From Siniperca chuatsi (lineage: Eukaryota; Chordata; Actinopteri; Centrarchiformes; Sinipercidae), in the NCBI RefSeq assembly GCF_020085105.1, contig NC_058055.1:28341872-28405871 (forward strand): a stretch of DNA of 64,000 nucleotides. The letters run 5' to 3'. The position numbers and the translations under genes were made by a program. Below, piece after piece: positions 3,741 to 59,900 of this stretch (the first letter of the stretch is position 1; each line of letters begins with the position of its first letter). The notes below the pieces were generated by a model that was not told the DNA's origin, made no database searches, and saw nothing but the letters and a program-made list of their open reading frames with translations.

Positions 3741-3830
3741 TTAAAGTGAAAGTGAGCGCTGATTTGGGCGCGAAAGGACGGGCTAAACCATTGTTCACAT
3801 GAGGAGGGGGTGAAACTGGATGTTATCAGG
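3741..3830 (+). promoter_or_regulatory. IRF/ISRE-like promoter of gene 1
   Basis: AAAGTGAAAGTGAGC (3743-3757) is a near match to the IRF consensus GAAANNGAAA. The block GGTGAAACTGGATGTTAT follows at 3809-3826. The same two elements, in the same order and spacing, stand in front of gene 2 (11712-11723 and 11769-11786) although nearby bases have diverged. This suggests a retained, interferon-responsive promoter. There is no clear TATA box; transcription probably starts downstream of about 3830. Function is inferred from sequence alone. Confidence 0.5.
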
Positions 3831-3839
3831 ATTAACAGT

Positions 3840-4067
3840 CAAAGTTGGACAAACGTAAAATATTTGATTATTTAAAAAAAAAAAAATCTCTCCACATATA
3901 TTTTAGCATTTATTCTAGATAAGCAGGACAGCAAGCAGGTTGTAGAACAGTGTTTAAGTTGGTATCTGCCACCTACGTCACTGCATCCAAACAAACAAAG
4001 ACATTTCAACTTCCCGCCACTGACTGAATTCAACTTCAAGGCAGAAAACAGTGACGAAAAGGACAAA
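3840..4067 (+). other. Non-coding first exon of gene 1
   Basis: This stretch is strongly similar to 11815-12048 before gene 2 (for example GTTTAAGTTGGTATCT versus ATTTAAGTTGGTATCT). Similarity continues into a shared splice donor, ACAAA|GTGAGTATT, at 4067/4068 and 12048/12049. The coding exon acceptor lies just two bases before ATG in both genes, so the 5' UTR must come from an upstream exon, and this is the candidate. The 5' end is not defined by the sequence. Confidence 0.55.
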
Positions 4068-5286: not shown

Positions 5287-8200
5287 AGATGTCGGTTATT
5301 TCAGAGAGAGAGTGGAAACGAGCTCTGACCTCCATCCTGGAGGAACTGGAAAAGCAACAGTTAACTAAGATGGTGGACTGTTTGGAAAAAATCCCCCAAA
5401 GTCAGAAGACTGGCAGGTTCAAAGAAAATCTTCCCCGAAAAATCATTCAGCACTACGGAGCGGAAGAGTCCGTTTCTGCAGTCAACGCTGCCATAGATCA
5501 GATACCGAGGAGGGACTCTGTAGTCCAGGACCTGCTGCGCCCCTTTGTGGACAAACTGAACAACAAACAGGAAAAAGAGAACAAGGGTGAGTTCATACGA
5601 TACGTTTTGAATTGTTGGTTTTGGTTCCAGAAATACTGGATCCCCGAGGATGTAGATTTTTGACAGACACACTTTGATATTAGGGTGAAAACTGAGAATA
5701 AGTGATTGTCTAAGTCAGATTTTATTTAGTAGAGACGCCTCTGGCTGCAGTTAACAGCCTCGAGTCTGTGTTACTACAAAACGCCGTCAAGCTGAGGCAT
5801 GTTCACTGAGCCGACTGCAGCTCTCCTGAAGTCCTGAAGTGTGGACTCTGACTTGGCAGCTCCAGGACTGGATGCAGATTCATGCTTCTGCTTCATAAAA
5901 ACATCGTTGGCAGTGAGAATGTATGGAAGCACACTGCGGTCACCAGGACTGGAGACACTGCACACGTCACCAGTTGTTCCTGGAGCGGTGAAGTGGAAAT
6001 TGTGCCTTACATCTGACACCTTCGTCCGTCCTTACAATAACAAAACATGTCAAACGTATCAGTTTTAAAATGAAAAGAGCCGCGCGGTGTTTAAAACGCA
6101 AAATATTGACTAAAGAAAGTGCAAGTGTTCACAGTATGAGGAACGCGTGTCCTGCCGGAGGGCGGTGTTTCAGACATTAGGAGACGCTCCTCCACTGTGG
6201 CTGCACGAACTCGACTGAATTAAACAGGACAAATCAACTACTGTTCGGTGTAACTTCACCATTTCTGAAAAATGCCAAAAGATCGACTCCACCTGAGGAA
6301 CGACGGACACGACAGCCGAAAACTGTAGAATGACGATTGGCTGAGTCGTCGTAGACGAAACCAGTTTGTGTTGATCTCAGTTGTTTTTGGAGAAGGGTGA
6401 CGTAGAGCTGAACAGTCTGTGTTCATGTTTACATTTACGTTTTTCAGGGAAGAAGAGGAAACGCGATCCAGACGAGGAGGAAGAAAGGTCTGCAGCAGGT
6501 GGGTTAACAGGCCGAAGGTGCAGCTGACACCTTTGGTCTCAGGTGGTGCGTTTAAAATCCTGGGTAGTTTGTGTTATTGCCTGCTATTATCAGTGAAGGA
6601 AAGTTTCTGGTAATAATAAAATTGTACTCAGTTAATATCTGAGGTCTGAACACGGTGACGTCACTTATCTAAATCACACAAACGTTTTTATTTTACTGAT
6701 GTAACGTCTACAAACATCAGCACTAAGTGAAATATATTAGCGTCTTCTCCATAATAAAGATACGCAGCCCCCTAAAGGTCACGGCGCGATTCTTTTAGGA
6801 CTACTTTTGCGTTCCTCGCGATACTTTTCTTCTTCTGTTCCTTCTGAGCCGAATGTCTACTTCCGCCGAGCTGCTCCAGCGCGACGCCTCAGTCTGGACC
6901 AGCTCACTGAACTTTACTGTGACCTGGACCTGAAGTCTGCTGATGTAGTGCTGCTGCTCAACGGGCCTGCACGCTTGTGGAATCAGAGGAAGCAAACTTA
7001 AAGGAATTCTTAGGTCGAGAAGTTTCTGCAGAAGAAAGCAGGACGCTGATCTGCAGGACGCTGATCTGCAGGACGCTGTCGGCTTCATCGTGAACACTTC
7101 CTGTCCTCCGGACTGTGCTGGACCCCAGAGGGGTTCACTGAGGAAGAGGAGGCGTCTCCAGAGGAGGAGGTACAGATGTGCAGCTGAATCTACCTCAAAG
7201 CTACAGTGCTGTATCTGTATGAGTCAACAAACAAGAATGCGACTGTAATGCTGCAGGCAGAGTCTGTGGTTCTGGTTCTGTCCCAGACAGGGTCTGTGGT
7301 TCTGGCACAGACAGGTACAGCAGTGAACCGCCTGCAGAGACACATCAGGGCCCTCTGTCCTCTGCTCAAAGCAAATCAAAGGAGGCTTCAGTGCTGGAAC
7401 AGGTTTTGGTAGAGGTGAGGAGCAATAACTGATGTTCCTTATACAAACAGAGGCCTGATCATGTTCTGCCGGGTGACGTCATATAAAGGTGAGGAGTCCA
7501 TTAACAAAGCTGAAAGCAGCGACCTGAGACTCTCCACACGGCCTTCCACTACAGACAGACGTTCGGCTCAGGAGGAGCAGAAGAAGAAAAGTACCGCGAG
7601 GGAACAAAAAGTCGTCCTCGGTAGTTCTCGCCGTGACCTTTAGGGGGCTCCGTATAAAGAAGTCTGCAGTGGGTTCTTTGTGTTTGAACTAGCGCTGATG
7701 ATAATCAGCACTTGCATCTTGCCCCTCTCCTGCTGCTGCAGAGCTTTAGACTAGGTCCTCCAAAAAGGTCTCAAATTCAGAATCCAGTTCCAGGTTCTTG
7801 TGATCACCTACAGATCTCTGCAGGTCTCTGAGCTCCTCTGATCAGGGTCCGCTGGTTGTTCCTCGATCCAGGATTAATGAAATGAGATCTGTAACTAAAC
7901 CGTGTGGAAACACTGACTGATGTTTGTTTCTCCTTTTTTAAAGATCAACAGGAGAACTGCCGACCTGACACGGTAGGAGTTTAGGTTAATACTGAGTCAG
8001 TCGCACTGGATATGTAATGCAATATATTTTATCTATCGGCATGAGACAACACATTCAGAACGTCACAGCAGTAAAATGTTTTAAATATAAATCGTGTTCG
8101 TTATTGGGAACTGAGCACTGATGAAATGTTTTCCAGGAGGGAATCGCTCGTACTTGGGTAAGTGCTTTTTCTCTGACTTCTCTTTCACTGCTCACACGTT

Positions 8201-9450
8201 TTGACATTTATATGTTGGTATTTATGTTACTTTGATGGAGAGTTGTTTCTCTCCTTTGTGTGCAGAGGATATTCATCCGTGAGCTGAGATCCAGCGGTGA
8301 ACTTCCTGAAAAAGCCATTGCTGGGAAAGTTGTTAAGAAATCGGGGCTGCGCTCGTATCAAACCAAAGAGAAAGTGAAAAGGTTTTTCTTTTATGTGGCG
8401 GTCGCTGACGAGACAGCCAGCGTTAAAGTGATGGTATATGGAAAAAAGCGCTATGAAGAAATCAAGGAAAAGAACTTCTACACGTTCAGAAAGCTAATTA
8501 AAGATGAAAAAGGTTTTAAGGTGATCGAACAGAGCAAAGTGTCACAGACGAGCTCTGTTCAAGTCCCAGAAGAGCTCGAGATGGAGGCTCAGGAGCTCAT
8601 TTATTCCGAGAGCCCAGTTTACACCATCGCCAAAGCCAAGTTATCTGCCGAGAAGACAGCAGTGAGTGTTGAAGGCACCGTTACAGAGGTGAGTTCAAGA
8701 GCTGTTTCACTGCTCTGCACTTTGTCTTCATAATATGAAATCTATCCTTCAGTTTGACTGGAATTTAAGGTGCCGTATTAATGTATATGCGTAGCCTTTA
8801 ACAGAAAGTAGAGGGGGAACTCAAACCTCGGGCTCTTGCTTTGTTCAGGTCGACCCCGAGGTGCGCAGAGCGAAGACGACCAAGAGGCAACATTTCCGAA
8901 TGAAAGATGACACCGATTCCATCGGGATCTGCATGTGGGATGAAAACACCAATCAGTGCAAAGATTTAGCAGTTGGAGACGTCGTTAAGGTTACCAACGT
9001 GAAGACCGGGCATTACCACGGAACCGTATCACTGAGCTCAACTGGATTCACCAGAATTCACAAGGTACCTGCAGAGACCTCTCACTTTATATCACTTTAT
9101 AAGCGGTTAAACCGCAGTTATTAAATGCTTTTGAAGGTATTTTTCAGCGTTTCCCGAGCCTTGACTGTTGATGTCAAACTGTCTTGTTGCAGGTTCACAG
9201 TGCTGGCATCCAGAACGTGAGACTTGAGATTATAGGAATCATAAAAGCCATCAAGAAGGAGACTCACCTGGAGGCAGAGTTCGACCTCCAGGTGCACACG
9301 TTTGTTGTGGCTTCTCGACTTCTGGCAGAGGCGTTTGGCTTCAAGCTGGAGGGGGATTTTAAACAGAGGCTCCTTGATAAAATACCATTTTCAGCTGATG
9401 CAGTAATAAAAGGAAGTAAAATTACTAAAATTACAGCCGTTCAGGTGTGA
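5287..9450 (+). CDS. Pyrin-like, tandem OB-fold (HIN-like) protein, gene 1
   Basis: Coding exons are 5289-5586, 6448-6498, 7944-7972, 8137-8157, 8266-8688, 8849-9064 and 9193-9450. All junctions are GT-AG and in phase, giving 431 residues. Residues 1-99 look like a pyrin/death-fold domain (EWKRALTSILEEL, QHYGAEESVSAV, IPRRDSVVQDLLRPFV). A linker with KKRKRD (101-106) is a likely monopartite nuclear signal. Residues 134-274 resemble HIN OB-fold 1 (GKVVKK, FFFYVAVADETASVKVMVYG, GFKVIEQSKVSQ). Residues 275-346 resemble OB-fold 2 (FRMKDDTDSIGICMW, VGDVVKV). Residues 347-431 are an unassigned beta-rich module. Start: the only ATG after the acceptor that opens the pyrin fold. Probable role: nucleic-acid sensing with death-fold signalling, by analogy with mammalian IFI16/AIM2. 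The OB-to-HIN link is pattern-based and needs profile or structure comparison. Alternative: an RPA/SSB-like OB protein fused to a death fold. Confidence 0.75.
6448..6498 (+). other. Linker exon of gene 1 with basic NLS-like run
   Basis: This 51-nt exon has phase 1 at both ends, so it can be duplicated or skipped without changing frame. It encodes G-KKRKRDPDEEEERSAA. The basic run followed by acidic residues resembles a monopartite nuclear signal. It occupies the place held by four 63-nt exons in gene 2 and is only loosely similar to them (shared first Gly, small and charged residues). Confidence 0.65.
6760..7655. mobile_element. DNA element with ~110-bp terminal inverted repeats
   Basis: The left end ATACGCAGCCCCCTAAAGG and the right end, reverse-complemented, ATACGGAGCCCCCTAAAGG match. 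Similarity continues inward for about 110 bp (both strands show AAGGTCACGGCG, CTCGCG(A/G)TACTTTTCTTC and TGAGCCGAA). The 0.67-kb core holds short repeats (GGACGCTGATCTGCA, three times at about 7043-7080) and no transposase frame. It is a non-autonomous transposon inside an intron of gene 1. The target-site duplication could not be fixed, so the superfamily is left open. Confidence 0.75.
7785..7885 (+). mobile_element. Short L2-like LINE scrap
   Basis: The stretch reads like the C-terminal end of an L2/CR1-type RT (VITYRSLQVSELL, then a stop, then a Ser/Gly-rich piece). It is similar in kind to the better preserved copy at 30759-31140. It lies in the gene 1 intron before exon 7944-7972. Confidence 0.4.
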
Positions 9451-11704: not shown

Positions 11705-11790
11705 TTTACTTGAAAGTGAAAGTATTCAGTTCAGTGGGCTAAACCACTGTTCAGTTTGGGGGGGGGGGTTGAAACTGGATGTTATGAGGA
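11705..11790 (+). promoter_or_regulatory. IRF/ISRE-like promoter of gene 2
   Basis: GAAAGTGAAAGT (11712-11723) fits the IRF consensus GAAANNGAAA exactly. It is followed by GGGCTAAACCA and, after a G run, TTGAAACTGGATGTTAT, all shared with the region before gene 1. The element is better preserved here than in gene 1. Interferon control is an inference. Confidence 0.55.
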
Positions 11791-11814: not shown

Positions 11815-12048
11815 ATTATAATATTTGACGATGAAAAATCTCTCTCCACGTGTTTGAGCATTTATTCCAGATAACTGGAGCAGCACGCAGGTTGTAAAAC
11901 ATTATTTAAGTTGGTATCTTCCACCCACCCCCACTCACCCACCCACCCCCACCCACACACACAAACAAAAACCCCAAACTGCCCTGAGAGGATAGACTGC
12001 CATTAAATCTCAAAGAAGAAACAGCCTGTGGTTGAAGAAAGGGACAAA
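11815..12048 (+). other. Non-coding first exon of gene 2
   Basis: This is homologous to 3840-4067 and ends at the same donor, ACAAA|GTGAGTATT. It contains a CCCAC/ACACAC simple tract at about 11930-11965 that gene 1 lacks. It probably carries the 5' UTR, spliced to the pyrin exon at 12551. Confidence 0.55.
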
Positions 12049-12550: not shown

Positions 12551-15500
12551 AGATGTCACTGAGGATTTTAGAGACAAAGTGGAAAACAACCCTGACCGCC
12601 ATCCTGGAGGAGCTGACCGAGCCACAACTCGGGAAGCTGATGTTCAGTCTGGAGAAAATCCCCCGTGGTGTGAAGAATAGCGAGGCCAGAGAAGGGATTC
12701 CTCAACTTATCATCCAGTACTACGGGACAGAAGGGTCCATCGCTGTAATAGATAAAGAAATGAAGAACATACCAAGGATGGACGCTGCGGTCCAGGACCT
12801 GCTGCGCCCCGTGGTGGACAAACTGAAGAAACAACGCGAGAAAAACAAAGGTGTGTTTATACGATGAGGTCCAGAGAGGCTGCCATAAGACTGAAGTCTG
12901 TCTGTTCTCGCTGGGTTTCCTCCCAGTCGTCTGTGGTATCTGCACCGGACGAATTCTGCAGAATGTCTTCAGCTTTACAATAAAAGCCCAGTAGATTGTT
13001 CTGTTTAAAACATCTGGCAATCAGCGTCTATGAAGAGACATTTTAACACACAAAGAGGCCGAGCCATTTCTGAAAAATGCACAGAGAGATAATCATTTTC
13101 AATTTGTGTGCGTTTCTTTCAGGGGCGACGAGCAAACGTGCAACTGACTCGGGGTCAGCGGCCAAGAAGCCGGAGGCTGCAGCTGGTAGGTCAACACGCA
13201 CACACGACTAAAAATTACTCAAGGTTTCTATCGATGCTTTGTTATTAAGGTTACATGCACAGTATTAGCGAACACTTAATAATTAGAACTGCACCGTCTG
13301 GCATCACCTTAGCTGCACGTGATTGGTGGAACAAACGGAAATCAATGAATGAGAAGGCAGGACGGTTCTGATTGGTTGTTTCTTTTTTTACATCAGTTCT
13401 AAGTAATATTAGACTGACGCTCTCTGGCTGATAGAGCGAGAGAAAAATATAACAGCGTCACTGTTGAGCAGCTACAACAGGACACACTGTATGTTACTAT
13501 AAGATAAGTTAAAACTAAGAAAGAAAGAAACAAACTCCATATTTTTTTTAAATGTTTCTTTCAGGGGCGACGAGCAAACGTGCAACTGACTCGGGGTCAG
13601 CGGCCAAGAAGCCGCAGGCTGCAGCTGGTAGGTCAACACACACACATGGATCAGAGACTGACTAAAAATTACTATCGATGCTTTGTTATTAAGGTTACAT
13701 GCACAGTATTAGCGAACACTCTTAAAGAAGAACAAAATGAAGACTTTGGAGTGGCCTAGTCAAAGTCCTGACCTGAATCCTATTGAGATGCTGTGGCATG
13801 ACCTTAAAAAGGCAGTTCATGCTCGAAAAACCCTCCAATGTGGCTGAATTACAACAATTCTGCAAAGATGAGTGGGCCAAAACTCCTCCACAGCGCTGTA
13901 AAAGACTCATTGCAAATTATCGCAAACGCTTGGTTGCAGTTGTTGCTGCTAAGGGTGGAGCAACCAGTTATTAGGTTTAGGTTGCAATCACTTTTTCACA
14001 CAGGGCCATGTAGGTTTGGATTTAGTTTTCCCTTAATAATAACAACCTTCATTAAAAAACTGCATTTTGTGTTTACTTGTGTTATCTTTGACTAATGTTT
14101 AAATCTGTTTGATGATCTGAAACATTCAAGTGTGACAAACATGCAAAAAAATAAGAAATCAGGAAGGGGGCAAACACTTTTGCACACCACTGTTTACTGT
14201 TCTGCTACAACCATCCTTGCATTTTGAACCGATGGAACAACAATTTTCAGTACAGTCAATAAAATCATGTCGCGCATGGGATCAATCCCCCTTTGCACAT
14301 GGGTTCTGCGTTTGGCCACTCCCGCTAAACTTTCTTTGACTTTATGACTGACCAAGGCTATAAAAACTTTTCTTTCAGGGGCGACGAGCAAACGTGCAAC
14401 TGACTCGGGGTCAGCGGCCAAGAAGCCGGAGGCTGCAGCTGGTAGGTCAACACACACACACGACTAAAAATTACTCAAGGTTACTATCGATGCTTTGTTA
14501 TTAAGGTTACATGCACAGTATTAGCTAACACTTAATTAATAATTAGAGCTGCACCGTCTGGCATCACCTTAGCTGCACGTGATTGGTGGAACAAACGGAA
14601 ATCAATGAATGAGAAGGCAGGACGGTTCTACGGTTCTGATTGGTTGTTTCTTTATTTGCATCAGTTCTAATATTAGACTGACGCTCTCTGGCTGATAGAG
14701 CGAGAGAAAAATATAACAGCGTCACTGTTGAGTAGCTACAACAGGACACACTGTATGTTACTATAAGATAAGTTAAAACTAAGATAGAAAGAAACAAACT
14801 CCATATTTTTTTTAAATGTTTCTTTCAGGGGCGACGAGCAAACGTGCAACTGACTCGGGGTCAGCGGCCAAGAAGCCGCAGGCTGCAGCTGGTAGGTCAA
14901 CACGCACTGATCCACTTAAGGAATCAAATACTATCACGTGTGTCAAACATGAAATCTGAGTTTGTCTGGAGGAGAAACTTCTGTTAAACTGATGAGCTTC
15001 ATGAGATCAGTAGCTGTGATGGCTGTTAACAGGGAACCCAGACAGCGCTTCATTTAATTAGCTCCGCCTCTTCGGTCTCGTTACTAATGCCTTTGCACAT
15101 ACCGCCGTGAAACTACAGGCCATAGTGTTTTAGTGCAGCTGGCCTGCAAGTACTGCACCCACTGATATCTGACTGCTGAGCTGTGAGGTCACAACGGCAT
15201 CATGTGACAGTGTGACGCCCATCCTGTCATCATGTGTCGCCATGGTGAAGCTTGTGAAAAGCTCAACACAAATCATGAAGGCCAAGTCAGGGGGCCGTTC
15301 AGATGTCGCGTCTAAAATCGCGTGGGGAAAACGCCAGCCGCGCCATCGTTTTATCCAAGGTGCTTGGGAGGTCGCGCCTGCTGTTACCAAGCAACCGATC
15401 CAAATCACAGTCAGTCCTAATGAGTTGTATCTCTTCCATCTTCAGTTACTTCAGTTTGGCTGACCTTTCAACCGGATGTTGTGACGTCTTTGGACGGAGG

Positions 15501-16907
15501 GTGAAGCAAGTCATGTGAAGCCGGTGCGCGCGATTTTTCCATCTCGGTGCGCCGCCGATGCGCCCTAAAAAACAGGCGCGTCGCAACGAACGCGCGCAGC
15601 GTCGCCTCCATTGAATATAATGAATTTGTGCCCGCAGAAGACGCGATGTCTGAACGGCCCCTTAGTATATAACCAAAACCCACCAAGCAAATCGTGTTCA
15701 TGAGATCCACTGATGCTGAAGACTTTACTGCAGTTGTATCTGTAAAAACACTGATGTTTGTTTCTTCTTTAAAGGTCAACAGAAGAGCTGCCAACCTGCC
15801 AAGGTGAGAGTGAGAGATCATAATGAATAATCCTCCGCGCACACACTCAAAGTTTGCTCCTGTAAACAGATTCATTCAGATATTTATTTATTTTATTTTT
15901 TTTTTTTACCATCTCCTTTTGTATCCAGAAGAAAACCCTCAGTAATCTGAAGGGCAGCAGTGAACTTGGCACAAAAGCCAGAGCTGGGAAAGAATCACAA
16001 ATCAGATTAGAAGTCGGTGTTAAAGTGATGGTACAATGTGTCTCGTAGAGAGATAACAGATCGGTCTTACAGGAAGCAGAGGTGGAATCCACTTGAGGTT
16101 GTGTAACCTGAAATGTGAAATCCATCGAAGACATGACACCAGATCTGAAAATTAGACCGATGACAGAATCAGTGCAGCTTTGCAGAGTAACAAAACTGTG
16201 ACAGTTAATGACTTTGAGGCAATCTTTCCAGTCGTGTTTTAATCGTGTGGTGCTGGTGTGTTCAGATTGATCCTGTTGGACAGATAATAGATTTGACCCT
16301 GAAACCACCTGAAATCTCCGAGGCAGTTGCAAGGACTTCCTTTATACTGATAACATCCGTTTGATTTGAGTCATAGATGTCTCTGTTCTGTGAGCTGTTA
16401 AACATGGTGTGCTTCACACTGTGAAACCACAACATCCCCTCATTTTTTCCTTCATGGCCGCCTCCGTGCCTACTTGGTTTGAGATGATGACAACCGGCAA
16501 CCTTGATCGGCGATGTCACCAATGATGGTGAAACCTTACTCAAAGTGGCACCCACTTTGGGAACCAGTGAACTACTTTATCAGAGTGGTTTTTGTACTGT
16601 ACTTTTCAGCACGTCCCAAACCTTCACCATGAATTGTCATTCTGTCTTCATGCAGGTTCAAAGTGCTGCTGTCCAGACTGGTGTAATTAAAATAGTAGGA
16701 ATCAAAAAGGTCAATACGAAGAACACTCACCTGGAGGCAGAGTTCAACAGCCAGCTGCAGACATTTTTTGTGACATCTCGGCTTCTGGAAGAGGCATGTG
16801 GCTTCAAACTGGAGGGTGACTTTAAAGAACGCCTCGTTAGTAAAATGCCGCTCTCAGTAGAAGTTGAAATAAAAGGGAATAAAATTACATCCATTAAAAA
16901 GATTTAA
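12551..16907 (+). CDS. Pyrin-like protein, gene 2; OB folds degenerate
   Basis: Tandem paralogue of gene 1. Coding exons are 12553-12850 (pyrin-like, residues 1-99, with [19 protein letters not shown]), four linker exons (13123-13185, 13565-13627, 14379-14441, 14829-14891), 15775-15803, then 15929-16048. The last exon aligns with the start of OB exon 1 of gene 1 (SSGELPEKAIAGK versus [20 protein letters not shown] versus GVKVMVQC) but has an internal deletion and stops with TAG at 16046-16048. The product would be about 232 residues without OB folds. No OB2 exon is visible. The final exon 16656-16907 is intact and phase-compatible, so skipping the stub gives a 276-residue pyrin-linker-C-terminal isoform. 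Likely a pyrin-only-type regulator or a gene losing its ligand-binding half. Which splice form is made cannot be told from DNA. Confidence 0.65.
13123..14891 (+). repeat. Four-unit tandem array of a 63-nt linker exon
   Basis: Exons at 13123-13185, 13565-13627, 14379-14441 and 14829-14891 each encode [17 protein letters not shown] then E or Q then AAA. All start and end in phase 1. Units 1 and 3 have GAG (Glu) and units 2 and 4 have CAG (Gln). Introns after units 1 and 3 are near identical; unit 2's intron begins the same way and is then cut by a Tc1 fragment. The pattern says a one-unit duplication was followed by duplication of the two-unit block (period 1,256 bp). Confidence 0.85.
13722..14193 (+). 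mobile_element. Tc1/mariner transposase 3' fragment
   Basis: The stretch carries the end of a Tc1-type DDE transposase: [20 protein letters not shown], then a frameshift near 13810-13830, then [15 protein letters not shown] and [15 protein letters not shown] with a stop. The 3' UTR and a terminal sequence AGGGGGCAAACACTTTTGCA follow. The 5' half and its terminal repeat are missing. It lies in the intron after linker unit 2 only. Confidence 0.85.
14892..15774 (+). other. Intron of gene 2 after the linker array
   Basis: Between the fourth linker exon and exon 15775-15803 there is 0.88 kb without a recognised domain. Open frames at 15130-15518 on both strands overlap each other and show no family match. 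A GC-rich, CpG-containing part at 15500-15650 may be an old transposon. No further linker copy is seen. Confidence 0.4.
15929..16048 (+). pseudogene. Degenerate OB-fold 1 exon of gene 2
   Basis: The frame [20 protein letters not shown] and the later GVKVMVQ match two separated parts of the gene 1 OB1 exon (8266-8688). About 80 nt between them are missing, and TAG ends the frame. The acceptor TATCCAG is preserved and the entry phase (0) agrees with exon 15775-15803, so splicing into it would truncate the protein. The rest of OB1 and the OB2 exon are not recognisable in 16050-16655. Confidence 0.7.
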
Positions 16908-23100: not shown

Positions 23101-26100
23101 TATTTGTATGTTTATATGCGCATGAAAAGGTAAAGTATGTATGATGAGCACACATTTACTATGTATTTTAATCTGTAATGTGTCTTTAATTTGATTATAG
23201 TGTCACTTATATTTATTAATTGGACTTTTGATTAATTCATGTAAAAATCGCTGCAAAAGATTAATACTAAAAGTTTAGATGAAAATCATTTTAAAAAGAC
23301 GATTAATACCACGAATCAGATTCTGTTTTCTTGTCACAACAAACCAGTTGAAGCTGATCTGTTTGTGTGTTTCTAATCATCTTCACTGCAAAATACTCTC
23401 AGAGTTCCTCAGAGTCCTGACCTGAGGCCAGGTGCTGGATCAGCAGTCGGTGACACTGGCTCCAGTATCCGGCCCGATACAGGTGCAGGGCCTCCTGATG
23501 TCTGTCGGCGTCTCGGCGGGCTCGGACGGCCTTGGCCTCGTGGATCCACTGCTCCGGGATCAGCAGCCTCTCGGTCAGGAAGCGCTCCCTCTGCACCGAC
23601 TCGTCCGTCTCCTGCAGGGGGCAGTGGAGGGTCAGCAGCTCCCGCACCGCTCGCTCCCGCTGACTGACGACACGCAGACAGAAAGATATCACAGTTAGAG
23701 TCGTTTCCTCTTCAGGGAGGAGGAGATGGAAGTTAACGACGGCCGTGAAACAAGTTAGAAAAGACGGAGAGTCAGAGAAAGAGAGGGACGAGGTAGAGAG
23801 AGACTGAGTCCAAGTTCTCCTCTCTACGCCGCGACACCAAGTGATCAATATGCTATATATCGGTAGTAGTGTTATTATATTTAGTATTTTATGCAAATTG
23901 CCATTCACCAAATGTAATACATGGATAAATCTTATACGTGTACGTGCAATTATGCAAGATATGTAATGGCTCATTTATCCAATTTAGACTTCGTCACATA
24001 TCATAAAAAAATCCAATACTGCCATAAAACAGTCCTGCTGATTGATCTGCAGCATTGTCCGCAATGGACTAATACACACAGAGACGATAAAGAGATAGGT
24101 ACCAACGCTTCAACAGTAAATATTTGACCGTAAAGTACGTATTGTCATACGTTACTGAAGATTTCAACTCCTCAAGCGGATTGTTCGGAGACAAACGGGG
24201 GGGAAATGAGATGAGATACGGCTGCAGCAAAGAATTATTTTCATTACCGATTAGCCTATTCGTGACTTTTCCATGAACCGATTAATCATTGAGTTTAAAA
24301 TGACATGAACACCAAAGTAACCAAAACCGCAAATCTTTAGTCTGATCAGCAACCACCTGCAAAATATTAATTTCATGTCAAACACTGAAAAGCAAATTAT
24401 GTTGACAGTTGTGAAGCTGAAGCCTGCAAATGTTTAGTATTTTTACTTGAAATATGTAACATGACGATGAATGATTACCATCATTCCCCCCCATCAACTA
24501 ATTGATTACGTGTGATCGTTTCAGCGCCTGTTCGCCACGTCGAAGTCACCTGACCGGTGTTTATATTTAAACACTGGAACCAGATGTTTCAGCTGTTTCT
24601 TCTGCGACTGAAAATTCAACAAAACGGTAACAACTTCGTCCGTAATTATCAATCGTTAAACTCATGAAGGACTTCTGAGGCAGCAAACATCTTTATTCTC
24701 TCTGATGCAGCTGATGGAAACTTCTGCGTCTTATTGGTGTTTTATTTTACATTTAATTTCAAGTTTCTGTGACGTTTACTGGCCGGGCGGAGGAAAACAC
24801 AGCTAACATAAACAGCTTATCCAGTTTCACGTTTGTAATTAAAGAAGAGGAGCTGAACGTACGGGTGGTCGGGGATGTGCAGCAGGATGAAGACGGCCAT
24901 GTGCCAGAGGCCGGCGCTCTCCAGCTGCGCGGCGTAGCTGGCGTGGAGGAGTCCCTGCCGCGAGGCGCTCAGGTGGCTGTAGTGCAGCGCCTGCAGGACG
25001 CCCCACAGGTGCCAGCTCAGGCGGTAATCCAGACGCTCCCAGGTGACCGTCAGAGGGTCCAACAGCTGCTGCAGGCTGTAGTGTCTGCAGGAGGACACAC
25101 AACTGAAGCATTAAAGCAGCATTACGCTGGTTTTACAGTTGCAAAATGTCTTCTGTGTCTCTGGAGGAGAAAACAACCCTGATGATGACGGGGGCCTGTG
25201 GAAAACGTGGGTGTTTATCAGACAAAGATTTAGCTGCATTAGCATTAGGCGAAATGTAGGAGCTAGAGCTGCAATCATCAATTAACTGTTTGGTCTATAA
25301 AATGTCAGAAAGTAGAGCCAAATGCCCGACATGTCTTCAAATGTCTTGTTTTGTGGGACGAACTGTCCAAAACCAGCAGATATTCTGGTTTCTGTCAGAT
25401 AAAGAAAATCCTCACAGTTCAGATCCTGGAACCAGAGATTTTTCGCTTGAAAAATGATTTAAACAGAATTGTTAGCCATGATCTGTTGATTGACTAATCA
25501 GTTAACTGACTAGTTGTTTCAGCTCTAACAGGTTTATTTGGTTTAGTCTGACCCATATCAGGGACTAACAGTGGATCTCTCGGCCTCTGCTGCACAGATT
25601 GACCGTTCTTTTAATCATAAGTACAGCTACGTTATAGAAGCGAGATACTAAATCACCCTTATTTACTGAAAGTTGGGGAGGACAAAGTCTGCGCAGCTAC
25701 TTTAGCCGTGGTTTAACCCGAACTGGTCGCGTCTGAGGTCACGACGTCCGATTAATTCCCTGAATGATCAACGACGTGACTGTCGGACAACTGGATGGTT
25801 TTCTGGCGGGTCAGAAATTTCTGCAGTTCTGAGATCAGATTTTTTTTTGGCTGCTGCCAAAACATCCGTTATTAACCTTTAAAAGACTGGAGTAATATTT
25901 TACATTTACAGCCGTAGTCTTTACTGAGACGAGCGGTCAGATGTTTGTATGTGCTGACGCTGGAGAAGCGGGGAATCTGAATCTGATGCTGATTAATGTC
26001 AACAGAGACGTTAAAATGTAAAGTGGACCGAACGTCTTCTGATCTGATATTTACCAGAATGATATTTTATCATTCTGAATGTTGATACTTCAGTTAACCA

Positions 26101-52961: not shown

Positions 52962-53790
52962 TTAAAGACTGGTTGGCTCATACTTTCCTAAAGTTAAATA
53001 AGGACAAGACAGAGATCTTACTCTTTGCCCCCCCCCCCACATCATACTACTGTTACTACCCAGAACCTCGATCACCTTTCCACCTACATCAGACCACATG
53101 CCAAGAACCTGGGTGTTATATCTGACGCAGATCAACAGGCAGGAAAATTCCATTGTCAGGTCCAGCATCTTCCAGCTCAGAACCATCTCCAAAATTAGGC
53201 ATTTCCTATCAGCCTCTGATCTAGAAAGAGTCATTCATACACTAATATCATCCAGGCTGGACTATTGTAAATCCCTCTACCAAAGCATCTCTCAGGCTAC
53301 CATTTCCCATTTACAACTAATTCAAAACGCTGCTGCCTGGATATTAACAAGGTCCAAGAAACAAGACCTCATCACCTCTATCCTTGCATCCCTACACTGG
53401 CTCCCTGTTCATTTCAGGATAAACTTCAAAACCCTTCTAACTGTCTACAAGTCTCTCCATGGTCTCTCCCCGACATATATCTCAGAACTTCTCACCCCCT
53501 ACAGCACCAGAGCCCTCAGATCCTCCCACTGTGGCATGTTGGCTGTGCCTCGTTCGTGGGAAAACAAGGCCGGGGACAGAGCTTTTTCTATAGCAGCTGG
53601 AGACCATTAGACAGGCTTTATTTTTCTGATTCCTTGGGTTTTAAATTGTGTTTTATTTCCACAACATCTGTTTATCTCACGTGTGATTTTATGCCTGTAT
53701 GTGCATACATATGTTTGTTTTTGTGAAGCACTTTGGTGCAAAATCCAAGTGCTTTTTAAAGTGCTATATAAATGAAAAACTGAAACTACA
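52962..53790 (+). mobile_element. L2-like LINE, RT C-terminus and 3' UTR
   Basis: Plus-strand pieces read FLKLNKDKTEILLFA, then IRHFLSASDLERVIHTLI, SRLDYCKSLYQS, LIQNAAAWILTRSKKQDLI, LHWLPVHFRINFKTL. This is the standard L2/CR1 RT order. The frame shifts between 53020 and 53100. The 3' UTR ends with AAGTGCTATATAAATGAAA. Confidence 0.88.
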
Positions 53791-57965: not shown

Positions 57966-58215
57966 AATCATTCCATGTATCTTAGGGTGAGAGTTCAGCC
58001 TTGGCTGGGACGAGAGTTTCAGTCGACAACATAGATGGTACACAAGAATGGGTCTAATAGTTTGGTCTCTGAGGCCATAGATAAGGGCACTCAGACACCT
58101 GGGGAGAATGAAAAAGCACACATACAAAAAATTCTGTAAACGCACAAACATTACCCTTGTTAAAAATGTTGAGCTGGCTACAAGGAATGAGTTGTGTACA
58201 GTTGAGGAGAGATGG
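57965..58215 (-). pseudogene. Duplicated C-terminal fragment of an odorant receptor
   Basis: In a different frame from the main gene, the minus strand again encodes TVHNSFLVASSTFLTRVMFV, then LYVCFFILPRCLSALIYGLR and DQTIRPILVYHLCCRLK. It repeats the last part of the receptor (TM6-TM7 and tail) with clear divergence, so it comes from a related gene rather than being a simple copy. It lacks a start. Confidence 0.75.
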
Positions 58216-59095
58216 TCTGGTCTCTGAGACCATAGATGAGAGCACTCAAACATCTGGGGAGGAGAAAAACACACACATAAAAAACAATCTGGATGCGCAC
58301 AAGTACTACCCTCGATGCAATTTCTGAGATAGCTGTGAGCAATGGGTTATTCATAGTTGAGGAGAGACTGAGGCCCAGCTGCACCAGATGCAGCAGCAGT
58401 GTGTTACGAGCCTTACGGGCTGAAGCTTTGTCTGTGGAGGCCGATCTGGCTGCTATCATCACACCAATATAGGAGGAAGTGATTGCCATGCCAGCTGATA
58501 CAAACAGAAAACAAGTATAGGCTTTGTCATAATGATCAGATATTTGCCCAAGAAACATGACAAGTGCACCAAAAAATTGTGTCATCTGCAGGCTCTCCAG
58601 GTCTTCAAATGGAAAATCTAAAAGCAAAAGAACTCGAATGAGGACATTTAGTGAACAAAAGGCCCAAACCACAATGATGGCCACTGCTGTGTTTCTGATG
58701 GTGACGATGGTAGCGTGCCTCAGAGGGTAGCACACAGCTACATATCTCTCCAGAGACATCATGACCAGTGTGAGAGGGGAGACTTCATTTGTGAGATTGG
58801 TGAACATGACAAGAAGACCACAGACAGGATAAGTCAACATTATTCTACACATAGACAGTATGTACAGTAACTGGCTGACTGCCATCTGCATAGTGTCTGC
58901 AAAAAGGAGGTTATACAGAAGAACGTAACGGGAGGTCTGACAAAACACTGGTTTACTCCTCAAGGTGAACAACATGATGACATTAATGAAGAAGAATACA
59001 CAGCACGGTACTGTAGTTAGAGTGGACAGCATCACTCTTTCCAGTAACCCCAATGCAACAGTTATGTTGGCCTGAGATTGAGTTGCGTAAGACAT
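58178..59095 (-). CDS. Odorant receptor 131-2-like GPCR
   Basis: A single-exon frame of 305 residues with seven hydrophobic segments. Typical marks: SLERYVAVCYPLRHATIVTI at the TM3/loop 2 border, SSYIGVMIAARSAS after TM5, KARNTLLLHLVQLGLSLSST before TM6, and RCLSALIYGLRDQT at TM7/C-tail. These are the signatures of the teleost odorant-receptor 131-2-like class (class A GPCR, olfactory epithelium by family knowledge). The last residues (SPQLYTTHSL) differ from the tail expected (DQTIRPILVYHLCCRLK), because a recombination event shifted the frame. It could still be functional. Confidence 0.7.
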   Translation of the reverse strand: MSYATQSQANITVALGLLERVMLSTLTTVPCCVFFFINVIMLFTLRSKPVFCQTSRYVLLYNLLFADTMQMAVSQLLYILSMCRIMLTYPVCGLLVMFTNLTNEVSPLTLVMMSLERYVAVCYPLRHATIVTIRNTAVAIIVVWAFCSLNVLIRVLLLLDFPFEDLESLQMTQFFGALVMFLGQISDHYDKAYTCFLFVSAGMAITSSYIGVMIAARSASTDKASARKARNTLLLHLVQLGLSLSSTMNNPLLTAISEIASRVVLVRIQIVFYVCVFLLPRCLSALIYGLRDQTISPQLYTTHSL

Positions 59096-59900
59096 CTCAG
59101 AGAAGCATTTAAGACATGAGAAATATTAACCTGTTGATGTCAAAGCACAATAAATCCCTTTGTGTTTGTATTCTGAGAACAATGAAAAAAAAGGAAAAAT
59201 TCTTTTAAGCATAAATGCCTGTTGAGTCACATCCAAAACCCCAAAGCATCCACATACATTTTTCCTGCACATAAAATTTGCAGGTTAGAGTCTGTGCTTG
59301 TTTCCATATAAGCAGAACTGGTCTGCAGGCTTTGCCTGGCCTCAAATATTGTATATCAGCTTTGTCCTACACCATGTTCACGTGACACCATCACATGTCA
59401 GCATGGTTAACAGCTCAGTAACAGGTGATGTAATCTCTCTGCTATTATTTCCCAACACCCTGCTCCATGTGATCACGTCTTACACAGTGTAAACTTAGTA
59501 AGTACGTAAATAAGTAAAGATTTCTATAGTGCCTCTCAAAACCAGAGTTACAAGGTGCTTCACAGGTGCACAGATTTTTGAATTTGTAAATGAATGTGCT
59601 GAGTAAAGTTGAGTTATAGATAAAATTGCCTACATTTCTGGCTGAATGTATTAAATTAGTTGTTAGTGGTTCACATGATCAGGACCAATTACCAGAGAGA
59701 AGAGAGAGAGAAGATACAAATAAGCTTACAGGCAGACACATGTAGGTTGACAGGCAGGCAGGTGCAGGTACAGATAGGTAGGTAAGCAGGCAGACAGGTG
59801 GCTCAAAAATAAAGAAACTACAATGATCTGACAACTGACTAGGGAAAAGGAGCTGGTACATGTGCTGCAGGGTTGATGAGGAAATTAGATGCACCACTGA
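59096..59900. other. Intergenic with simple repeats
   Basis: 59510-59580 has a common teleost motif (TTCTATAGTGCCTCTCAAAA). 59730-59800 is a CAGG/GGTA-rich simple tract. No gene is seen. Confidence 0.45.

Follow-up and report, generated by a model that had tools for sequence, protein, structure and literature searches.

A 64,000-nucleotide stretch of the Siniperca chuatsi genome (NC_058055.1, positions 28,341,872 to 28,405,871, forward strand; contig 14 of the 719-Mb genome, hereafter the window) holds a seven-exon gene, gene 1, whose predicted product joins an N-terminal pyrin-like domain (PYD) and a basic linker to a pair of OB folds (OB1 and OB2) matching both the HIN domain of mammalian PYHIN proteins and DBD-A/DBD-B of RPA70. 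We favour, with some reservation, the explanation that the product of gene 1 is a fish receptor for nucleic acid of PYHIN-like type, whose OB pair is homologous to HIN and to RPA70 DBD-A/B and which would activate an inflammasome through its PYD. PYHIN proteins rank among the main inflammasome families that sense DNA, and the fish protein most likely works like an AIM2-like receptor. With a fish family that is recognised by the HIN profile and links HIN to RPA70, the origin of the HIN domain can be tested directly; the finding also suggests that an as yet undescribed sensor of nucleic acid, perhaps of single strands, exists in many spiny-rayed fishes, including farmed species.

The original prediction, made from the letters of the window alone, described PYHIN as mammal-specific. 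This agrees with the passages cited here of a 2012 survey, which confines the family to mammals (PMC3458909), and of a May 2026 study that covered over 150 species, fishes included, and dates it to therian mammals (PMC13253634). In the relevant sections of two reviews, the AIM2 and Pyrin genes are given as not present in teleosts (2023; PMC9978379) and, of the DNA sensors listed, only DDX41 is given as found there (2015; PMC4588145). Among open-licence PMC papers, as far as their searchable text extends, we found no description of the fish family in print; preprints and most subscription papers lie outside this scope.

Gene 1 and the domains of its product

Gene 1 (5289-9450, plus strand) is a real gene. 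The proposed structure of seven exons joined in phase to give 431 residues is borne out by splicing, all six introns being GT-AG, and by the RefSeq model LOC122887768 of S. chuatsi, whose isoform X2 (P0001, 430 aa, uncharacterised) is 100% identical to our product over the whole model. The only difference is an extra residue, R134, in the window protein, encoded at 8266-8268 where exon 4 meets exon 5; its absence from isoform X2 is not accounted for by any canonical splice site seen there, and perhaps reflects an allele or assembly difference.

Exon 1 (5289-5586) encodes the pyrin-like death-fold domain (residues 1-99 and the first base of codon 100), as judged by Pfam and by the helices of a structural model, and exon 2 (6448-6498) encodes KKRKRD (residues 101-106), resembling a nuclear localisation signal, and an acidic run. 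Exons 3 (7944-7972) and 4 (8137-8157) continue the linker in the spliced frame. Exon 5 (8266-8688; residues 134-274) carries OB1 and the helix (VPEELEMEA) that links it to OB2, together with strand 1 of OB2, and ends in phase 0 after VSVEGTVTE; the rest of OB2, with an invariant Trp (W304, or W303 in P0001), is encoded by exon 6 (8849-9064; residues 275-346). Exon 7 (9193-9450) supplies residues 347-431, a third OB-like domain (OB3), and the stop codon. As a side observation, intron 2 contains inverted repeats of about 100 bp (6760-6858 and 7557-7655) that are 82% identical, 700 bp apart and DNA-transposon-like.

The domain assignments were examined with Pfam on the 431 residues. PYRIN was matched at 30.9 bits (cut-off 22.9; E = 3.2e-7; best stretch 13-76), falling slightly below the cut-off when the PYD exon was scanned alone (21.4 bits, E = 2.9e-4), and it was found at E <= 0.1 in 15 of 20 PYD stretches chosen from the fish family; the pyrin-like N-terminus of the original prediction therefore holds for the whole protein. 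HIN passed its cut-off marginally (22.8 bits against 22.7; E = 8.5e-5; residues 154-306), and the OB families CDC24_OB3 and tRNA_anti-codon were matched as well. The predicted NLS-like linker was also upheld, KKRKRD lying between PYD and OB1 and the basic pattern K[KR].[KR] recurring there in 33 of 43 full-length relatives, compared with a mean of 11.9 of 43 in shuffled linkers.

An AlphaFold2 model of P0001 (mean pLDDT 81, pTM 0.40, 43 sequences) shows a helical N-terminal bundle and, beyond a linker that is disordered over residues 99-130, three OB-like barrels, at about 136-226, 234-347 and 351-427 in P0001 numbering. The third barrel corresponds to exon 7 and had no place in the earlier description; by HMM-HMM (profile hidden Markov model) comparison OB3 scores at null level against both HIN and RPA70-AB. 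When the model was compared with known structures by Foldseek, HIN structures took ranks 1-4 and 34 among the best 36.

The OB pair, HIN and RPA70

For comparison a mammalian set was collected with AIM2 as query, which gave 192 matches; among the 120 listed, the named ones were mammals, bar one MBP construct, and the 72 of 330-445 residues were reduced to 43 at 80% identity. The likeness of the OB exons to HIN had been read by eye, with an HMM-HMM comparison proposed as the check. That comparison supports it, with a score of 54.9 (P = 8.9e-8, 181 columns in register) against a mean of 14.1 and a maximum of 21.9 for 100 column-shuffled fish profiles; judged on profiles, the likeness of fish OB1-OB2 to HIN exceeds chance. 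The whole profiles of the fish family and the 43 mammalian proteins align collinearly (P = 1.9e-8), the 327 columns starting in the PYD and running through to the end of HIN. In reciprocal HMM searches (E <= 0.01, Z set to 20000), HIN recovered 19 of 43 fish sequences and fish OB1-OB2 recovered 26 of 43 mammalian ones, with 0 of 430 shuffled ones recovered each way. The same searches with the PYD part fail (1/43 and 0/43 at E <= 0.01). Against the PDB the PYD family profile matched the NLRP4 PYD best (9.9e-5), the next five matches being other proteins, followed by Pyrin and NLRP PYDs at 0.066 or above; by sequence, the fish PYD is not PYHIN-specific.

Exon structure provides a second line of comparison. 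HIN is encoded by two exons in mammals, according to the passage cited (Cridland 2012, PMC3458909), as is fish OB1-OB2 (exons 5 and 6). In predicted PYHIN proteins of Peromyscus and mustelids, shared sequence diverges after ...YVNGEFVVTK and ...FVSGIYQVHK, the end of OB2 strand 1, from which we infer that the mammalian junction, like the fish one, follows this strand; the fish junction, after ...VSVEGTVTE, lies two residues nearer the conserved Gly than the inferred mammalian one. The linker motif was also tried as an HMM; its best match fell over VPxxLxxxA in 22 of 43 sequences, none scoring above the shuffle maximum, and it was discarded as evidence. As a plain pattern, VPxxLxxxA is present in 39 of the 43 fish sequences and in all but one of the 43 mammalian ones.

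The likeness is not exclusive to HIN. In a PDB search with the fish profile, RPA70 (9.5e-8), IFI16 HIN (1.2e-7) and an archaeal SSB (1.3e-7) came out together, with p202, p204, AIM2 and MNDA weaker, and at E <= 0.01 the 43 relatives matched Pfam HIN in 30 cases (best 2.7e-8), REPA_OB_2 in 41 and PYRIN in 12. The profile search proposed with the original prediction thus gave a match to HIN, with RPA70 matched about equally. Mammalian HIN compared with RPA70-AB by hhalign reached 13.8, where the null is about 14; no RPA chain was among the 60 listed of 64 PDB matches to the mammalian profile; and the 43 mammalian proteins contain no REPA_OB_2, the general OB family PF01336 being found in 8. With human and Ustilago RPA70-AB fragments (lacking the DBD-B end), Pfam HIN was unlisted at E <= 10, HMMER filters dropping most matches above about 0.1. 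Since the fish sequences match both, whereas HIN and RPA70 failed to match each other, the fish family is, in terms of sequence profiles, a bridge between the two. The width of the gap between HIN and RPA70 is approximate, because the RPA profile is tiny and the HIN profile shallow (Neff 3.2).

We then considered the residues that would touch nucleic acid, placing human RPA70 in one alignment with the fish and mammalian sets (43 sequences each) and using what we take to be the contact positions of RPA70 and AIM2. Most RPA70 contacts are kept in kind in the 43 fish sequences: R210 as Arg (32), W212 as Tyr (41), R234 as Lys/Arg (41), F238 as Tyr (43), K263 as Lys/Arg (41), K343 as Lys/Arg (29) and W361 as Trp (43). 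R216, F269 and E277 are lost, and K331, R335 and R339 are partly retained. Tandem OB folds with stacking aromatics, the feature of single-strand binding by RPA70, are thus predicted in these full-length fish relatives; Rep_fac-A_C is absent from the 21 families found in the 43 relatives at E <= 0.01. Of ten basic contacts of AIM2 with double-stranded DNA (dsDNA), only R311 is mostly basic in fish (35/43), compared with eight in the mammalian set, where K162 and K163 vary. Because RPA-type contacts are mostly kept and AIM2-type ones mostly lost, single-strand binding is favoured, and OB1-OB2 probably binds single strands via the classical OB groove.

The fish family and its possible functions

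Relatives were collected by two protein searches that require shared 5-residue words, the first of about 5.8 billion proteins (108 matches) and the second with 43 full-length members as query (111 matches). Apart from one archaeal protein in the second (E = 2.7), every organism-named match of both searches is a fish. Siniperca (Percomorphaceae) and Centroberyx (Beryciformes), whose taxonomy was looked up, both belong to Acanthomorphata, and we assume the remaining named fish matches to be acanthomorphs too. There were no zebrafish proteins among the matches of these word-based searches; because these searches, like the one with AIM2, depend on such words, the absence of other vertebrates is weak evidence. 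One Centroberyx protein has been named automatically as gamma-interferon-inducible protein 16-like. The 43 full-length relatives align across all domains, with 19 invariant columns.

Architectures were counted in the 129 fish sequences from both searches, isoforms and partial sequences included, with CARD searched by five seed pieces only. PYD-OB1-OB2-OB3 is the commonest (70), followed by OB1-OB2-OB3 (13), PYD-OB1-OB2 (10), CARD-OB1-OB2-OB3 (7), PYD-OB3 (6), PYD-PYD-CARD (3) and PYD alone (3). Another 17 have rare layouts, some of which are perhaps fused gene models; PYD-OB1-OB2-CARD occurs once in the 129. The Pfam CARD cut-off is passed by P0101, P0098 and P0073, the notothenioid P0090 falling below it, and in a tree the members with CARD fall into a single notothenioid clade (support 0.95) and, apart from it, into two scombrid clades. 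N-terminal domains have thus been exchanged among these predicted relatives. P0099 (Pagothenia borchgrevinki, a notothenioid), which we counted as PYD-OB1-OB2, is a single model in which a caspase domain (3e-55) accompanies PYD and OB1-OB2, and may be a nucleic-acid-sensing caspase or a fused gene model. In Thunnus thynnus, RefSeq gives the name ASC (PYCARD) to P0101-P0103, in which two PYDs of the fish family are combined with a CARD, and the data suggest that their genes lie on the same chromosome as the tuna OB members. Fish ASC thus shares its PYDs with the family in these tuna proteins, but they are without OB domains, and ASC is an adaptor rather than a receptor.

If gene 1 encodes a receptor, OB1-OB2 would bind nucleic acid, probably single-stranded, in an RPA-like groove rather than through AIM2-like contact with the dsDNA backbone, and the basic linker may carry the protein to the nucleus. 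Where several molecules line up along the same nucleic acid, their pyrin domains would meet and seed a PYD filament, which could then recruit the ASC adaptor and lead to caspase activation. With mammalian PYHIN proteins (AIM2, IFI16, MNDA, PYHIN1, mouse p202-p205) the family shares an N-terminal PYD, a linker, an OB pair that reaches the Pfam HIN cut-off and is split over two exons after OB2 strand 1 (presumably so in mammals), and tandem gene copies. It differs from them in its occurrence in fish, its OB3, which has no counterpart there, its RPA-type contacts, a PYD that is not PYHIN-specific and its neighbour Nup98-Nup96, and its OB packing is doubtfully HIN-like. With RPA70 it shares HMM-HMM likeness of the OB pair and the invariant Tyr/Trp at F238/W361, and RPA70 is the best VIA-align match of the pair; unlike RPA70, it has a PYD and basic linker in front, passes Pfam HIN and has no Rep_fac-A_C.

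Several of our results weigh against a PYHIN-like receptor. Besides the AIM2 contact pattern, the HMM-HMM score of fish OB1-OB2 against RPA70-AB (60.4) is slightly above that against HIN, although the RPA profile contains just three sequences, of which one covers no more than DBD-A. The OB1-OB2 packing in the predicted structure appears closest to DNA-bound RPA70, not HIN, and of the 15 right-hand break points in the mammalian predictions, 4 lie after OB2 strand 1 and the other 11 elsewhere. Because DNA-free RPA70 and these break points weaken two of the arguments, our confidence in the receptor explanation is slightly lowered, and with most AIM2-type contacts gone and no firm sign of HIN packing, we have not filed the fish family as PYHIN. 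Of the IFI16/AIM2 layout originally proposed, the PYD, the linker, the OB pair and the HIN profile match stand, whereas the RPA-type contacts, the apparently RPA-like packing and the third OB domain depart from it. Similarly, the tandem HIN-like folds find support in two modelled OB barrels, the marginal Pfam match and the first four Foldseek ranks, but the barrels appear to pack more like DNA-bound RPA70.

Many of these observations would be expected if fishes had joined a PYD to an RPA70-like OB pair independently, the likeness to HIN coming only from common RPA ancestry; such a protein could still be a sensor. The slightly better match to RPA70, REPA_OB_2 in 41 of 43 relatives, the fate of the two sets of contacts, the packing, the exchange of N-terminal domains and the distribution of named matches (acanthomorph fishes in the one case, mammals in the other) all agree with convergent assembly. 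Yet mammalian HIN, itself without an RPA70 match, matches the fish pair, and its presumed exon junction, measured from the conserved Gly, differs from that in fish by no more than two residues. We regard convergence and common descent as about equally probable, neither quite reaching an even chance. Should descent be common, PYD-OB sensors would predate mammals, a reading that we consider somewhat less likely than not: the fish family would be a surviving sister branch of PYHIN, an intermediate in which an RPA70-like single-strand OB pair had been joined to pyrin on the way to the dsDNA-binding HIN, and fishes would have swapped PYD for CARD at least twice.

A function as a nuclear regulator like MNDA or IFI16, restraining transcription or viral genomes and using the PYD for self-association only, would suit the basic linker in 33 of 43 relatives, the RPA-like nucleic-acid site and a neighbouring paralogue, gene 2, which lacks OB1-OB2 and could be a PYD-bearing regulator; however, CARD, PYD-PYD-CARD and the PYD-caspase-OB model point to death-fold signalling, and we consider this explanation unlikely. 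It is highly improbable that gene 1 is a gene-model or pseudogene artefact of unrelated exons joined by eye. The ratio of nonsynonymous to synonymous substitution rates (dN/dS) in the PYD exon is near 1 (see below), as such an artefact might show, but RefSeq models match (gene 2 identically), the 43 relatives align with their invariant columns, and 70 of 129 sequences have the full architecture.

Gene 2 and the surrounding locus

Gene 2 (LOC122887769; 12553-16907, plus strand) is a tandem paralogue whose spliced product is identical to P0104, S. chuatsi isoform X1. It comprises a PYD exon (12553-12850), four near-identical linker exons (13123-13185, 13565-13627, 14379-14441 and 14829-14891), a short exon (15775-15803) and an OB3 exon (16656-16907). 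OB1-OB2 is missing, but what is left of an OB1 exon, and of the flank preceding it, is marked at 15873-16033 on the plus strand by sequence matches to gene 1 (15873-15992 against 8205-8329, 67% identity, E = 1.8e-10; 16012-16033 against 8415-8436, E = 0.071). Gene 2 is possibly a natural decoy or regulator. This reduced PYD-OB3 form is not unique to Siniperca, since Trachinotus, Enoplosus and Seriola have it too. Between the PYD exons of genes 1 and 2, dN/dS is near 1 (NG86 0.39/0.49; YN00 0.44/0.39), so strong constraint on this exon is not shown. A genome query with P0001 revealed no third gene, the six exon matches all lying inside the window (nine candidates scored; a lower bound). Viral capture was considered and rejected: 83 viral-contig stretches matched a pattern of profile A1, and none encodes a relative.

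Upstream of gene 1, a non-coding first exon probably ends near 4067 (4021-4067, plus strand; 4021 is an arbitrary limit, the true start being undefined), with the donor ...GGACAAA/GTGAGTATTA; this donor and its surroundings are conserved upstream of gene 2 at 12048/12049. The 11-mer AAAGTGAAAGT, which we take to be IRF/ISRE-like (ISRE, interferon-stimulated response element), lies at 3743-3753 on the plus strand, and its other copy, at 11713, is upstream of gene 2. These are the only two copies in the window, where 0.13 are expected and at least two occurred in 1 of 100 shuffles, and the genes may be under interferon control. The ISRE GAAANNGAAA is not enriched window-wide (8 against 4.9 +- 2.1 expected; as many in 11 of 100 shuffles).

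The right-hand neighbour is Nup98-Nup96 (minus strand, 20000-48000), with a Nup96 domain at 24820-25110 (3.4e-24); FG-rich exons are seen by eye near 46 kb, where Pfam finds no match. The mammalian PYHIN locus lies between SPTA1 and CADM3, in the passage cited (PMC13253634), and the left flank in the window is too short for comparison with it. Elsewhere, frames at 2300-2740 and 53002-53607 look by eye like remnants of LINE reverse transcriptase, the latter without a Pfam match at E <= 0.01, and an open 315-residue frame on the minus strand at 58181-59125 resembles a rhodopsin-family receptor, weakly of the olfactory type.

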